DNA from: Methylobacter luteus IMV-B-3098
GTDB taxonomy: Bacteria; Pseudomonadota; Gammaproteobacteria; Methylococcales; Methylomonadaceae
Direction: 5' to 3'
Assembly: GCF_000427625.1 (NCBI RefSeq)
Contig: NZ_KE386569.1
Location: 2,100,591 to 2,164,590, forward strand
Length of the DNA: 64,000 bases
Below, piece after piece: positions 54,195-63,088 of the stretch. Position numbers and translations under genes: made by a program. The notes under the pieces are model-generated. The model was not told where the DNA came from. It ran no database searches and saw only the letters and a program-made list of their open reading frames with translations. How positions within the stretch are numbered: position 1 is the stretch's first letter; every line of letters starts with the position of its first letter.

Positions 54195-55466
54195 TTACTC
54201 AATAATATCCAACCCGCCCATATAAGGCAGCAATGCTTCGGGAATGCGAACGCGTCCCTGGGCGTCCTGATAATTTTCCATAATCGCAATCAGGGTTCTG
54301 CCGGCCGCCAAACCCGAGCCATTCAATGTATGCACCAACTCGGGTTTGCCGGTTTCCGGATTGCGCCAGCGCGCCTGCAAACGACGGGCCTGAAAATCCT
54401 TGAAATTGCTGCACGAAGATATTTCGCGATAAGCCCCCTGCCCTGGCAGCCAGACTTCGAGATCATAGGTCTTCGCTGAGGAGAAACCGGTATCACCAGC
54501 GCACAACAACACCTTGCGGTAAGGCAGTTTCAGTTTTTTCAGGATGTTTTCGGCATGCGTGGTCAGTTCTTCATGCGCCTTGGCGGAATCTTCAGGCTTG
54601 ACGATTTGCACCAGCTCGACCTTTTCAAACTGATGCTGGCGGATCATGCCGCGCACGTCGCGCCCGTAAGCGCCGGCTTCGCTGCGGAAACATGGCGTGT
54701 GTGAGACGAATTTCAGCGGCATGTCCTTGGCGTCGACGATGATGTCTCTGACGATGTTCGTGACCGGCACTTCGGCGGTTGGGATCAGATAGAAAGGAGT
54801 ATCATTGTCGACCCTGAACAGATCAGCCTCAAACTTCGGTAGCTGGCCAGTGCCGCGTAGGCTTTCGGCATTGACCAAAAACGGCACATAGGTTTCGCTG
54901 TAACCATGCTCCAGCGTATGCGTATCCAGCATTAATTGGATAATCGCGCGCTGCAACCTTGCCAATGGACCGTTCAAGACCACAAACCGGGCACTGGCGA
55001 TTTTGGCGCCCAGCTCGAAATCCATGCCCTTCTTTGAACCCAGATCGACATGATCCCTGGGTTCGAAATCAAATACAGGAATATCGCCCCAGCGGCTGAT
55101 TTCAACATTGTCGTCCTCGTTTTTGCCGTCCGGCACGCTGACGTCGAGGATGTTGGGAATGCCTTCCATCAAGGCTGTCATTTGCACCTGGATTTCGGAC
55201 AGTTCCGTTTCCGCCTCTTTCAGCTGATCGCCCAAATGCTGAACCTGATCCAAAAGCGGCTGAATATCTTCGCCTTTGGCCTTAGCCTGCCCAATCGCTT
55301 TGGACCGGCTGTTACGGTCATTCTGTAATTCCTGGGTTTTAACCTGCATGTCCTTGCGCCTGGCTTCCAGAAGAACGTAAGACTCCGAATTAAAACTGAA
55401 CGAACGCCTGTTTAATTGTTCCTTCACAAAATCAAGATCAGCTCTAAATAAATGGGGATCTAACAT
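54195..55466 (-). CDS. serS: Seryl-tRNA synthetase
   Basis: 423 residues, class II synthetase. The N-terminal coiled-coil tRNA arm (about residues 25-105) precedes the catalytic core: motif 2 [20 protein letters not shown] with FEKVELV, and motif 3 [15 protein letters not shown]. It charges tRNA-Ser. It ends the orn-crcB-DUF190-serS run; the crcB-serS neighbourhood is common in gammaproteobacteria. Confidence 0.97.
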
Positions 55467-55489: not shown

Positions 55490-55807
55490 TTAAGAAATTG
55501 AATGAGTATGGGCCGTCGCTGCCCAGCTAACGATATGTTTGAGCTTCAGTCTTGACTGAAGCTCATGGATGGCTTTTTCAACTTTTAAAGGCTCATCGTA
55601 AAACTCGATGATCAACGGTAATTCCAGCGACAGGTCAAGCAGTGAGGAAGTATGAATCTCACCAGATATCCCCATCCCGGCGATACCACGCATCACCGTG
55701 ACACCCATGATTTTTTCCTCGTCGCGCAGAATATTCAGAACGCGATCAAGATGATCACGCCCTTCCATCGTATAAACTCTGGCAATTTTTATATCTGTTG
55801 TAGTCAT
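55490..55807 (-). CDS. DUF190 family protein
   Basis: 105 residues from the ATG at 55807, which overlaps the crcB stop (ATGA). It is a PII-like small alpha/beta protein: [62 protein letters not shown]190 genes are often next to or fused to crcB and are thought to help fluoride export or sensing, without a settled mechanism. The overlap with crcB supports joint expression. Confidence 0.9.
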
Positions 55808-56511
55808 ATCTGCCTGCCTACCCATAAGCCCGCCCAGAGCACCAAGATACTGATCAAACCGTTGCCGACAAAAATGCCGAGCATTAAATTCAAATGGGTT
55901 TCAAATGAATAACCATGCTCTATCAAATACAGAATTAAATACAGACCGGACAAGGTTAAATAAAGACCCACTATTATGATCATAATCGCGGCCCGATATT
56001 CCATTGACATAGCTACTTTCTGCAATAAAACAGTCGCTACAATGCCTATTAAAAAAGCGCCAATGGCATTCACGACAACCAGTGCATAAGGAAACATTCC
56101 GCCCGGCCATTGAATAACGCCGTCCGAATACAGAAATAACGATCGGCCGGAAAGCAGCCCCAGCCAGACAGCCAACAGACACGCAATAAGGCTGATCAAC
56201 ACATTCAGTGCGGCTTTCGTAAAACTGCCCTGCTCTATCAAATAAATTGTTTCCAGCGAGAAACTCGAAAACGTCGTGAAACCGCCCATAATACCCACCA
56301 GAATCCCGGCCCGGTATTCCAAGGCAAAGGCAATACGTTGAAGAATAAGGGCTTCAGCTAATAATCCGATTAAGAACGAACCAATGACATTTACCGCTAA
56401 CGTGCCGTAAGGAAAGCCTCGCCCCAGCCACTGATAAGTTCCCGTTGATACTAAAAAACGCAGCACCGAGCCGAGCGAGCCGCCCAGCGCCACAGCAATC
56501 AATTGATTCAT
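55804..56511 (-). CDS. crcB: Fused, internally duplicated CrcB/Fluc fluoride channel
   Basis: 235 residues, nearly twice the usual ~125. Half 1 (1-125) is a normal CrcB with GGSLGSVLRF, pore Asn N41 in YGTLAVNVIGSFLIG and GGFTTFSSFS (76-85). Half 2 repeats from IQWPGGMFPYALVVVN (133-148, matching 26-41), with N148 kept but the FTTFSSF segment changed to LYLTLSGLY (183-191). Segments 65-95 and 171-200 also align (EYRA to YLIE). Only about seven membrane helices are visible: helix 4 of half 1 seems to double as helix 1 of half 2, which would invert the second half, as the antiparallel Fluc dimer requires. Exports fluoride. Confidence 0.88.
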   Translation of the reverse strand: MNQLIAVALGGSLGSVLRFLVSTGTYQWLGRGFPYGTLAVNVIGSFLIGLLAEALILQRIAFALEYRAGILVGIMGGFTTFSSFSLETIYLIEQGSFTKAALNVLISLIACLLAVWLGLLSGRSLFLYSDGVIQWPGGMFPYALVVVNAIGAFLIGIVATVLLQKVAMSMEYRAAIMIIIVGLYLTLSGLYLILYLIEHGYSFETHLNLMLGIFVGNGLISILVLWAGLWVGRQI

Positions 56512-56517
56512 GTCTTC

Positions 56518-57081
56518 TCAGGCGTTGCCCGTGCCCTTATAGGCAATGAAATGGTCCCGGTAATAACGCAACTCTTCAATGGATTCGATAATATCGCTTA
56601 AAGCCATGTGCGTCGCTTTTTTATTGAAGCCGCCTCTCAATTCCGGCGCCCAACGGGAAACCAGTTCTTTCAGCGTCGAAACATCAAGATTACGGTAATG
56701 GAAATAAGCTTCCAGTTTAGGCATATACCGGTAAAGAAAACGCCGGTCCTGGCAAATACTGTTGCCGCAGATAGGCGACTTGTTTTCCGGCACCCATTCC
56801 CTGATGAATTCCAGGGTCAGCCGTTCCGCTTCGGCATCATCAATAGTTGAAGCCTTGACTCGATCAATCAGGCCCGATTGTCCGTGATATTTCTGGTTCC
56901 AGTCGTCCATAGCCGCCAGCGCCGCATCGGACTGATGAACCGCCAGCACAGGCCCTTGAGCCAGGATATTCAAATTCTTGTCGGTAATGACCGTGGCAAT
57001 CTCAATGATTAAATCAGTATCGGGATTCAGTCCGGTCATTTCCAGATCTATCCAGATGAGATTCTGTGAGTCCTGCGCCAT
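56518..57081 (-). CDS. orn: Oligoribonuclease
   Basis: 187 residues, DEDDh exonuclease. The motifs are [16 protein letters not shown] (DxE), [15 protein letters not shown] and the later [20 protein letters not shown] (His and Asp). It degrades 2- to 5-mer RNAs and pGpG, finishing mRNA decay and c-di-GMP turnover. It is divergent from the M48 protease and rsgA pair, as is often seen in gammaproteobacteria, and is followed 6 bases later by crcB. Confidence 0.97.
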
Positions 57082-59368: not shown

Positions 59369-62300
59369 ATGGCACAGAACACCTTTAAGCCGGGCATCCC
59401 CGGCTTCACCTACGCGGATTTATACAACTCCGCACGTCTGAAAGACTTGCTGGATGTGTTCGATACGACGGTCGAGCAGCAAAATCCTGAACTGTTCGCG
59501 GCATTTCAAGACTACCGGCTGACTCAGGGCGCAGGCCTGGAGCCGGTGGAGATTTCCGACCTGCTGGTGCGCATGGGACCTTATGTCGGCCAATTCGTCG
59601 CCAGGCTGTTCAATGTAACCGGGCAACAACAGGCGCAGACCATAAAAATCAAGGACGAGTTTGATACGATCTATGCCTACAAACACGAAGTCGTCGGAAA
59701 GCTCGGTACGCTATTCAAGGGCCAGGATATCAGCCAATGGGACATTTCAACTGTAACAAGCCGCTTTGAACTGCTGATCGAGGCGGGCTTCCCGGGAACC
59801 AATGCCGACACTGATGATGAGCATCGCGTAGCCCGCGTAGGCTCTGAACTGGCGCGACTGGCCAAACATTATACGCTCATCGCCAAAGGCCAAAACAGCG
59901 ACTACGGAAATGCGGATCAAGCCGTGGAGGCGCTGCACCGGAACCTGAGCGCGCACGGATCGGCCGCTATCGTCTTTGCCGACATACTGGCACTACAGGA
60001 TGCGCCCGAATTCGTAAGCCGCCTGCTGGACATCGTTCAGCGCTGGAGCTTCGTCGCGCTCGAAGACCCACAAGTCGGCCAAAAAGTCACAGACTGGCTC
60101 AGCTTCAAAACGCCTGGCAAACAGGATTTCGACGATCTCGTCGAGCATGAAATCATCGATCACGGACCCTACAAAACCTGGATAGGACCCAAGACATTAC
60201 GCAAGCGGCGCGATGGCTTTGCGCTGACCGATCCGCGTTTCAATGAAAGACAGGTACTGTATGAAGTCGACCATTGCATCTACTGCCACGAGCGGGACAC
60301 GGACTCTTGCTCCAAAGGCATGCGCAACAAGAAAACCCATACTTATAAAACCAATCCTCTGGATGTCGTCATAACCGGCTGTCCTCTCGATGAAAAAATC
60401 TCCGAGATGCACGTGGTCAAGCGCCAGGGCGACAATATCGGCGCACTGGCGATCATCATCATCGACAACCCCATGTGCCCCGGCACCGGCCATCGTATCT
60501 GCAACGACTGCATGAAGGGCTGTATCTTCCAAAAGACCGACCCTGTCAATATTCCGCAGATCGAAACCAATGTCCTGACCGACGTGCTGTTCATGCCCTA
60601 CGGCTTTGAAATTTACAGCCTGCTGACGCGCTGGAACCCGCTGAACGTCAAGCGCCCTTATGCCCTGCCCTATAACGGCAAAAACGCGCTGGTGGTCGGG
60701 CTGGGGCCGGCCGGCTACACTATGAGCCATTACTTGCTGAATGAAGGCTTCGGCGTCGCGGCCATCGACGCCCTGAAACTGGAGCCGTTGCCCCATGACC
60801 TGATCGGCGATGCCGACACGCCGCCCGAACCGATTCGGGATTTCAGCGAACTCTACGAGCAACTGGACAAGCGCAGGCTGGCCGGTTTCGGCGGCGTGGC
60901 CGAATACGGCATCACGGTGCGCTGGGACAAGAATTTCCTGAAAGTCATCTATGTCAACCTGCTTCGCCGCCATAATTTCCGGGCCTACGGCGGCGTCCGT
61001 TTCGGCGGCACACTGACTATCGACGATGCCTGGGACATGGGCTTCGACCATATCAGCATCGCGACCGGCGCAGGCAAGCCGACCGTTATCAACCTGAAGA
61101 ACAACCTGATCCGAGGCATCCGCAAAGCCTCCGACTTCCTGATGGCGCTGCAACTGACCGGCGCGGCCAAAGCCTCATCGCTGGCCAACCTGCACGTGCG
61201 CCTGCCGGCCGGCGTCATCGGCGGCGGTCTGACCGCGATCGACACCTGCACGGAACTCTTGGCCTATTATCCGGTACAGGTCGAGAAAATACTGACGCGC
61301 TATGAAAAGCTGGTGCAGGTGTTCGGAGAGAAAACCGTACGCATCCGTTATGACGAGGAAGAAATCGAAATACTGGATGAATTTCTGACCCACGGCCAGG
61401 AAATACGGGCCGAACGCCAGCGCGCCGAAGCTGCCGGCGAGAAACCGGACTTTCATCCGCTGCTCGAAAAATGGGGCGGCGTTACTTTGTTCTACCGCAA
61501 GGGTATCAAGGATTCCCCGGCCTATCGGCAAAATCACGAGGAAATTACCTCGGCTCTGACTGAAGGCATCGCCCTGGCCGAAGGTATGAGCCCTAAGCAG
61601 GCACTGGCCGATGAGCATGGCCATCTGAAAGCGGTACTGTTCGAGAAAATGGTTCTGGAAGGCGACAGCTGGGTCATCTCAGGAAACAACGTGACCGTGC
61701 CATTGCGCAACCTTTATATCGCCGCCGGCACATCGCCCAATACGATTTATCAAAGCGAGCATCCCGGCACTTTCGAGATGGACAAGCAGTTCTTCCAGCG
61801 CTACCAGCCCGAATGGCTGGACAGCAACCTGGAACTGGTTCCCATGGCTGACAAGACCGCTCCGAAACTGGGCAAGCCGGCTCCGCTGACCTCCTACCGG
61901 AAAGGCAATAAATTCATCAGTTTCGGCGGCGACAACCATCCGGTCTATGCCGGCAATGTCGTCAAGGCCATGGCCAGCGCCAGAGACGGTTATCCTTATA
62001 TTGTCAAACTGTTCGAAGAAGAACTGGCCGCCCTGGACCCCGCACAGCAGACGCAACGCGATACAGCGCTGCGAACCCTGTTCTCGGCCCTAGACGAAGC
62101 CCTGACGGCCAGGATAGTGGCTATCAACCGCCTGACGCCAAACATTATCGAAGTCATCGTGAAGGCACCGATGCAGGCCAGGAGATTCCAGCCGGGGCAA
62201 TTCTACCGGGTGCAGAACTTTGAAGCCCTTGCGCCGGTCGTCGAAGACACGGTGCTGGCGGCGGAAGGCATCGCCCTGACCGGCGCCGAGGTCGACAAGG

Positions 62301-63088
62301 AAAAAGGTACGATCTCGCTGATTGCTCTGGAGATGGGCGCCTCCACGCGTCTGTGTGCCAACTGGAATATTAACGATCCTCTCATCGTCATGGGCGTCAC
62401 GGGCACGCCGACGGAAATCCCGCATGATAAAACCGTGCTGCTGCTGGGCGGGGGCTTAGGCAATGCCGTCTTGTTCTCTATCGGCAAGGCATTGCGGGCG
62501 GCCGGCAACCGCGTCATTTATTTTGCCGGTTACAAAAACAAGCATGATGTTTTCAAAGTCGAGGATATCGAAGCGGCCTCGGATATTATCATCTGGTCCG
62601 TCAATAAAACGCCTGATGTTGAAGAACCCATCATGCCGTCACGGCCCCAGGACAAGACCTTTATCGGCAATATCCTGGAGGCCATGATCGCCTATGCCAC
62701 CGGCAATCTGGGAGATCAGCCCATCAGTCTGTCCGAAGTCGATCATATGGTTGTCATTGGCTCTGACCGCATGATGGCGGCCGTCAAGCAAGCCCGCTTT
62801 GGTGTATTGCAGCCGTACCTGAAAGAGCACGTAGCCATCGGCTCCATCAACTCGCCGATGCAGTGCATGATGAAGGGCGTCTGTGCTCAGTGCCTGTGCA
62901 AGCATGCCGATCCGGCAACGGGCGAAGAATACTTTGTCTATTCCTGCTATAACCAGGACCAGGAACTGGATCGCGTGGACTTCACGCATCTGCATGAGCG
63001 GCTGCGGCAAAATTCGGTACAGGAGAAGCTGTCGAATCTTTGGCTGGACTATCTGCTGGAAAAACAAAAAGAAGCGGAGCACCCATAA
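59369..63088 (+). CDS. Large Nfn-like flavoprotein (GltD/NfnB-like fused to PyrK/NfnA-like)
   Basis: 1239 residues. Residues 1-290 are a helical region I cannot assign. A Cys-rich part follows (C303, C306, C314, C338, C370, and C378-x2-C-x3-C385), resembling the iron-sulfur domain of GltD/NfnB. Two nucleotide-binding folds come next: GLGPAG (444-449) for FAD and VIGGGLTA (near 618) for NAD(P). From about 905 the protein resembles PyrK/NfnA: FQPGQFYRVQNF, LLLGGGLGNAVLFSIGKAL, and a [2Fe-2S]-like cluster C1166, C1172, C1175, C1177, C1193. NfnAB couples NADPH oxidation to NADH and ferredoxin by electron bifurcation; whether this fusion does so is inference. It has no operon partner in view. Confidence 0.82.
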   Translation: MAQNTFKPGIPGFTYADLYNSARLKDLLDVFDTTVEQQNPELFAAFQDYRLTQGAGLEPVEISDLLVRMGPYVGQFVARLFNVTGQQQAQTIKIKDEFDTIYAYKHEVVGKLGTLFKGQDISQWDISTVTSRFELLIEAGFPGTNADTDDEHRVARVGSELARLAKHYTLIAKGQNSDYGNADQAVEALHRNLSAHGSAAIVFADILALQDAPEFVSRLLDIVQRWSFVALEDPQVGQKVTDWLSFKTPGKQDFDDLVEHEIIDHGPYKTWIGPKTLRKRRDGFALTDPRFNERQVLYEVDHCIYCHERDTDSCSKGMRNKKTHTYKTNPLDVVITGCPLDEKISEMHVVKRQGDNIGALAIIIIDNPMCPGTGHRICNDCMKGCIFQKTDPVNIPQIETNVLTDVLFMPYGFEIYSLLTRWNPLNVKRPYALPYNGKNALVVGLGPAGYTMSHYLLNEGFGVAAIDALKLEPLPHDLIGDADTPPEPIRDFSELYEQLDKRRLAGFGGVAEYGITVRWDKNFLKVIYVNLLRRHNFRAYGGVRFGGTLTIDDAWDMGFDHISIATGAGKPTVINLKNNLIRGIRKASDFLMALQLTGAAKASSLANLHVRLPAGVIGGGLTAIDTCTELLAYYPVQVEKILTRYEKLVQVFGEKTVRIRYDEEEIEILDEFLTHGQEIRAERQRAEAAGEKPDFHPLLEKWGGVTLFYRKGIKDSPAYRQNHEEITSALTEGIALAEGMSPKQALADEHGHLKAVLFEKMVLEGDSWVISGNNVTVPLRNLYIAAGTSPNTIYQSEHPGTFEMDKQFFQRYQPEWLDSNLELVPMADKTAPKLGKPAPLTSYRKGNKFISFGGDNHPVYAGNVVKAMASARDGYPYIVKLFEEELAALDPAQQTQRDTALRTLFSALDEALTARIVAINRLTPNIIEVIVKAPMQARRFQPGQFYRVQNFEALAPVVEDTVLAAEGIALTGAEVDKEKGTISLIALEMGASTRLCANWNINDPLIVMGVTGTPTEIPHDKTVLLLGGGLGNAVLFSIGKALRAAGNRVIYFAGYKNKHDVFKVEDIEAASDIIIWSVNKTPDVEEPIMPSRPQDKTFIGNILEAMIAYATGNLGDQPISLSEVDHMVVIGSDRMMAAVKQARFGVLQPYLKEHVAIGSINSPMQCMMKGVCAQCLCKHADPATGEEYFVYSCYNQDQELDRVDFTHLHERLRQNSVQEKLSNLWLDYLLEKQKEAEHP

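Follow-up and report, generated by a model that had tools for sequence, protein, structure and literature searches.

The window, a stretch of 64,000 nucleotides from contig NZ_KE386569.1 of Methylobacter luteus IMV-B-3098, carries on its reverse strand a crcB gene (positions 55804..56511) whose ORF starts with ATG and encodes 235 amino acids followed by the stop. Against the Pfam model CRCB (PF02537) the whole protein scores 105.7 bits over two stretches (cut-off 32.9), and NCBIfam assigns residues 1-125 to the fluoride efflux transporter CrcB with 155.2 bits (cut-off 129). The significant sequence matches in the PDB are bacterial Fluc channels, and they span residues 3-125 at most. A Pfam search of the 5.03 Mb genome found this one crcB.

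The neighbouring genes lie on the same strand. Downstream, a DUF190 gene (about 55490-55807, reverse strand) overlaps the crcB stop in an ATGA, and beyond it stands a gene (54195..55466, reverse strand) that, from its sequence, we take to resemble seryl-tRNA synthetase. Upstream, crcB begins six bases after the end of a gene (56518..57081, reverse strand) which presumably resembles oligoribonuclease. No fluoride riboswitch was found near crcB, since there was no Rfam match nearby, and a plasmid search gave no match. Elsewhere in the window, positions 59369-63088 hold a 1239-residue open frame that, judged by eye, looks like a fused flavin/NAD oxidoreductase.

Two CrcB copies in a seven-helix chain

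A sequence-only reading of the locus had described the protein as a tandem of two CrcB copies, and this description is borne out by the two Pfam stretches, by the internal repeat and by profile comparison. The Smith-Waterman score of the repeat is 199; 2000 shuffles averaged 35.7 and never exceeded 63, and shuffling residues within blocks of ten gave no score above 89. Profile-profile alignment of copy 2 with copy 1 gives a probability of 99.7% and an E-value of 1.7e-26. Copy 2 alone reaches 22.3 bits against PF02537 (E 1.7e-4), below the cut-off of 32.9, and its homology to CrcB rests on the profile-profile and internal-repeat alignments and not on Pfam. The earlier pairing of YQWLGRGFPYGT (residues 26-37) with IQWPGGMFPYAL (133-144) has the right coordinates; the second repeated block, running from EYRA to YLIE, is also present, with ends that had been placed one residue short, the true spans being 65-93 and 171-198.

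Copy 1 (residues 1-125; 56137..56511, reverse strand) is a complete canonical Fluc subunit with helices TM1-TM4 and the residues R18, T37, N41, T79, T80, F81 and F84. Copy 2 (residues 127-235; 55807..56133, reverse strand) comprises the TM1/TM2 loop, TM2, TM3 and TM4. As had been proposed, it has no first helix of its own: in the profile alignment copy 2 from residue 128 matches copy 1 from residue 21. The hydropathy profile of the protein shows seven hydrophobic peaks, and each of the 97 fused proteins that form the comparison set described below is hydrophobic across the seven helix regions.

An AlphaFold2 model calculated from an alignment of 42 rows (9 fused, 33 single) has a pLDDT of 89.7 and a pTM of 0.77. 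It contains seven transmembrane helices and no eighth, at residues 2-29, 35-57, 64-78/86-93, 97-127, 142-165, 170-198 and 207-234. Copy 1 of the model adopts the four-helix Fluc fold, with a TM-score to Fluc chains of up to 0.88 by target length (Fluc-Ec2) and an rmsd of about 2.1 Å; a structure search with the model returned no chain covering the two halves together at an E-value of 0.001 or better. An earlier model built on nine rows (pLDDT 69.6, best TM-score to Fluc 0.61 by target length) was set aside as poor. According to the model and the hydropathy profile, the offset of three helices suggested by the sequence-only reading holds, and because the number of helices added is odd, copy 2 must, in the modelled topology, stand upside down relative to copy 1, the two halves being antiparallel.

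The same reading had also proposed that TM4 of copy 1 doubles as TM1 of copy 2, and this part finds no support. TM4 (residues 97-127 in the model; 56131..56223, reverse strand) runs into the fusion joint and keeps the residues usual in single CrcBs, namely N103, S107, C111, W116 and G118. Its best 17-residue score against TM1 is similar in fused and single forms, with a median of 14 (3-28) in the 97 fused proteins and of 10 (0-30) in 33 singles, and when residues 97-235 are aligned with copy 1 by hhalign the alignment begins only at the end of TM1. TM4 thus holds the topological place of TM1, and an identity as TM1 is not evident from its sequence.

Distribution and selection of the fused form

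The fused form is found in six of the eight families of Methylococcales that were sampled. In the family of the window organism 136 of 151 genomes give a match, most of them nearly full length and without stops, while 15 have none; by genus, 28 of 29 have a match. Among the named relatives with matches are Methylobacter, Methylomonas methanica, Methylocucumis and other Methylococcales, which we take to be methanotrophs. Methylomonas methanica belongs to the Methylococcales according to the NCBI taxonomy. A CrcB occurs in 192 of the 201 genomes of the whole order, and 36 loci from the other families show the fused form in f2-f6 and single forms of 124 amino acids in f7 and f8. In a tree of copy 1 the single forms of f7 and f8 group with Cycloclasticus and another gammaproteobacterium.

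We extracted 106 proteins, 70 from the window's family (the 30 best loci and 40 chosen regions, mostly selected for divergence) and 36 from chosen regions of the other families. The comparison set of 97 fused proteins includes the window's own protein (L002); it omits one frameshifted locus (L071), one running through masked bases (L155), one truncated (L162) and the single-copy loci L167, L177, L178, L182, L183 and L187, and the named fused loci L072-L079 also lie outside it. A DUF190 gene stands downstream on the same strand at 44 of the 97 fused loci and at 31 of 86 other loci where copy 1 was found, a count made with short flanks and one protein query in which the 86 include a few fused loci (L074, L079). 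Because it is present in both groups and also adjoins single-copy crcB genes, DUF190 was rejected as a partner specific to the fused form.

For the search outside the order we used a copy-2 profile; run on the window protein, it matches twice within one frame. At class level at least 195 of 274 genomes match this profile; among the matches listed, and besides the window's genome, two matches occur only in G454, in separate frames. Twelve of these genomes (eleven with open frames of length 200 or more, plus G454) were compared with the Pfam model and gave one match each, save G454. In the phylum at least 99 of 150 genomes match, and among the matches listed three others have two matches, again in separate frames; this result covers the two-match test, about ten long open frames there lying outside it. 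Thus no fused form appeared outside Methylococcales among the matches listed in the class and phylum samples, by a profile that can miss a strongly diverged second half, as in G153, a fused member of the same order that gave one match.

That a frameshift or an assembly error joined two genes, or that the repeat arose by chance, is practically excluded, the homologues refuting the artefact. No observation on this gene speaks for it, the nearest being the broken second copies of a few relatives (such as L071 from G065), whereas long stop-free matches occur in most of the 136 genomes of the family and in five other families, so that the check for a frameshift origin proposed with the original reading, like the proposed search for further fused CrcBs, came out in favour of a genuine fusion. 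The repeat moreover stands far above its shuffles, and dN/dS is well below 1 in both halves.

For 29 close pairs, which were chosen by hand and are not all independent, copy 1 has a median dN/dS of 0.05 and copy 2 one of 0.13; the median ratio of dN between the copies is 2.3, copy 2 being the faster, although two pairs show less change in copy 2 than in copy 1. Averaged over pairs of the 97 proteins, sequence identity is 64% in copy 1 and falls to 34% in copy 2. From these values copy 2 is under purifying selection, with a weaker constraint than copy 1. In family f4 copy 2 has been reduced to a remnant in L162 (from G171, 160 amino acids) and is absent from L167 (from G197, 133 amino acids); these two proteins pair with support of 100/91 and are nested inside the fused proteins of f4 in the copy-1 tree, and at least one line has thus retained copy 1 after loss or reduction of copy 2. 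Since that tree has few columns and places an Agrobacterium row next to the window protein, which is surely an effect of long-branch attraction, we used it only for this nesting and for the grouping of the single forms.

Several further loci deserve mention. In family f6 two fused crcB genes (L163 and L175) lie on opposite strands of one locus of about 3.8 kb. G065 and G089 (L045, L048, L071) have an intact fused crcB of a more diverged type together with broken pieces closer to the window's type elsewhere, as if one crcB type had replaced the other. G010, whose genome is listed as 100% complete, has no match to the fused protein and no CrcB match in the search of the order, and it and the 14 other match-less genomes of the family may have another fluoride exporter.

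Pore residues and the pairing of the copies

In copy 1 of all 97 fused proteins R18, P34, T37, N41, T79, T80, F81 and F84 occur together, and they include the pore Asn, both central Phe and the TTF of the TM3 motif (TTFSTF in the CrcB/Fluc family). The window protein carries the TM3 motif as GGFTTFSSF (residues 76-84; 56260..56286, reverse strand), where the model breaks between TM3a and TM3b as Fluc does. Its counterpart in copy 2, GLYLTLSGLY (residues 182-191; 55939..55968, reverse strand), belongs to a helix, TM6, that is unbroken in the model. The loss of the TTF segment and of the pore Phe noted at the outset is confirmed, F81 corresponding to L187 and F84 to L190, and none of the 97 proteins keeps both Phe in copy 2. 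Position 187 is Phe in 13 of them, on several branches of the tree, and something else in 84; at position 190, where 85 have Leu, only L051 has Phe, leaving 96 without it. At position 191, which aligns with Ec2 S84, Tyr is found in 70 and Trp in 14. In 13 proteins none of the positions 187, 190 and 191 holds Phe, Tyr, Trp or Met. Polar residues of copy 2 are often kept: N148 is present in 67 of the 97 and N217 in 85, and position 188 is Ser or Thr in 91.

In Fluc, according to an eLife 2016 study and the FEX paper, each pore takes its first Phe from one subunit and its second from the other. Table 1 of a paper in eLife 2017 gives both F80L and F83L of Fluc-Ec2 as inactive, and Ec2 concatemers with both pores hit are reported as inactive in eLife 2016. 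If the two halves of a chain paired with each other, as the sequence-only reading assumed, both pores would therefore be damaged, each drawing one Phe from each half, and its picture of a degenerate second pore alone has to be corrected. In the window protein each pore of such a self-paired chain would combine one Phe with one Leu, and in 83 of the 97 proteins, this one included, no pore would contain the full Phe pair. By analogy with the published Ec2 mutants, pores of this kind are predicted to be dead. Several results point away from pairing within the chain.

We therefore propose, with a probability of about one half (0.52), that two chains each contribute their copy 1 to the channel and that copy 2 is a conserved appendage outside the pore. 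The complete subunit is fused to TM2-TM4 of a second CrcB, which must be inverted, and in the predicted arrangement the conducting unit would be the usual antiparallel dimer, made of copy 1 from each of two chains that insert in both orientations, so that both pores would be canonical. Copy 2 would lie beside the dimer and perhaps stabilise it or control its assembly. Pairing of copy 1 with copy 1 is favoured because the pore set of copy 1 is complete in 97 of 97 proteins and the Phe pair of copy 2 in none; because F81, a residue that contributes to the partner's pore in Fluc, is kept throughout; because copy 2 was cut or lost in the f4 line with copy 1 kept; and because of the 13 proteins with neither an aromatic residue nor Met at 187, 190 and 191. 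The single crcB in the genome, by Pfam search, also agrees with it, as do the dN/dS values of the two copies. The K+R bias between the two sides, with a mean of -0.70 over the 97 fused proteins (range -4 to 5), -2 in the window protein and a mean of +1.24 in 33 singles, is small enough to permit both orientations; it would suit a self-contained dimer equally, and was rejected as a judge between the modes of pairing.

The main alternative, which we regard as tentative and distinctly less probable, is a self-contained antiparallel pseudo-dimer, the two copies of a single chain pairing with each other in the Fluc manner. Conduction would be confined to the pore that TM2 and TM4 of copy 1 line, as it is to one pore in eukaryotic FEX, and where Phe187 has been lost Tyr or Trp at 191, one helical turn on, would provide the aromatic ring. 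The three added helices, which invert copy 2, suit such self-pairing and would not be needed by an appendage; copy 2 is under purifying selection; and its polar residues in the pore half (N148, N217, Ser/Thr188) are often kept. In the 13 proteins with F187 this residue and F84 would complete the pore of copy 1 in the pattern described for FEX, giving one complete pore if the chain is self-contained, and L051 keeps F190; by sequence, a FEX-type Phe pair exists in these relatives and is lacking in the window protein with its L187 and L190. The prevalence of Tyr and Trp at 191 also fits, since Ec2 S84 projects into the partner's pore according to the eLife 2017 paper. Against the pseudo-dimer stand the 83 proteins without a complete pair, given the inactive Ec2 mutants, and the 13 in which 187, 190 and 191 are all devoid of an aromatic residue or Met. 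F81 would then face only the damaged pore and is invariant, whereas the FEX Phe at the vestigial pore is described as having drifted; TM6 is unbroken in the model, and in one line copy 2 was cut or lost while the motifs of copy 1 stayed.

It is rather unlikely, in our estimate, that this bacterial clade solved the parity problem independently by dropping a helix and arrived at a single-chain, seven-helix channel with one pore, in which Y191 (Tyr or Trp) replaces Phe contrary to the two-Phe rule of Ec2. Self-pairing may possibly have come first and been given up later in most lines; the full-length tree, with weak inner support and a midpoint root, does not discriminate among ancestral residues at 187. 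Quite improbable is a fusion that is no longer a channel by itself and serves in regulation or assembly, or transports something else. Such a role would agree with the lack of functional data found for this protein and of a fluoride riboswitch near the gene; it is at odds with the whole Fluc residue set in copy 1 of all 97 proteins and with the finding by Pfam of no other crcB in the genome.

Comparison with known Fluc arrangements

Copy 1 shares its fold and pore set with the Fluc/CrcB homodimers Fluc-Ec2 and Fluc-Bpe (PDB 5A43, 5NKQ), whose chains consist of four helices, while the fused protein adds three more that lack TM1, the TTF segment and two Phe. With FEX it has in common two CrcB domains per chain, forced to be antiparallel, and one half more degraded than the other. 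FEX, however, joins its domains through a linker helix, and the extra helix attributed to it in the sequence-only reading agrees with the inversion linker helix named in eLife 2013; the fused protein has no such linker and a copy 2 without TM1, and hence seven helices. FEX is also described as having lost one Phe per domain, leaving one pore whole, whereas copy 1 of the fused protein lost neither.

Three other arrangements are comparable. The La1/La2 Fluc heterodimers, encoded by paired genes, likewise combine two unequal CrcB copies of neighbouring sequence, but they are two separate four-helix proteins, each of them needed, and not one chain of 4 + 3 helices. In the engineered Fluc concatemers (Laf-TM; WT/WT Ec2) two Fluc copies are joined and inverted as well, there by a foreign glycophorin helix and here by leaving one helix out. 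For DUF606 a mini-review describes homo-dimeric, hetero-dimeric and fused antiparallel forms within one family; the two-domain membrane proteins of DUF606 are treated here as a separate family, likened by description only.

The fused seven-helix form is thus a variant within the known CrcB/Fluc family, built unlike the fungal and plant fusion. In the publications consulted, bacterial Flucs appear as homodimers or heterodimers and fusions that occur in nature are placed in eukaryotes, and eLife 2013 terms the step needed for fusion 'evolutionary gymnastics'; among the matches listed in the open-access literature (PMC) no paper reported a bacterial Fluc fused in nature. The family is a leading example for the study of dual topology and of how inverted repeats might have originated, and a clade-wide bacterial fusion through helix loss would be a second route beside the eukaryotic one. 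Among the Ec2 concatemers, the eLife 2016 study could not test the class in which one domain lacks both Phe. The fused protein carries this combination naturally, so that either the two-Phe rule or the way in which the chains pair can be put to a direct test.
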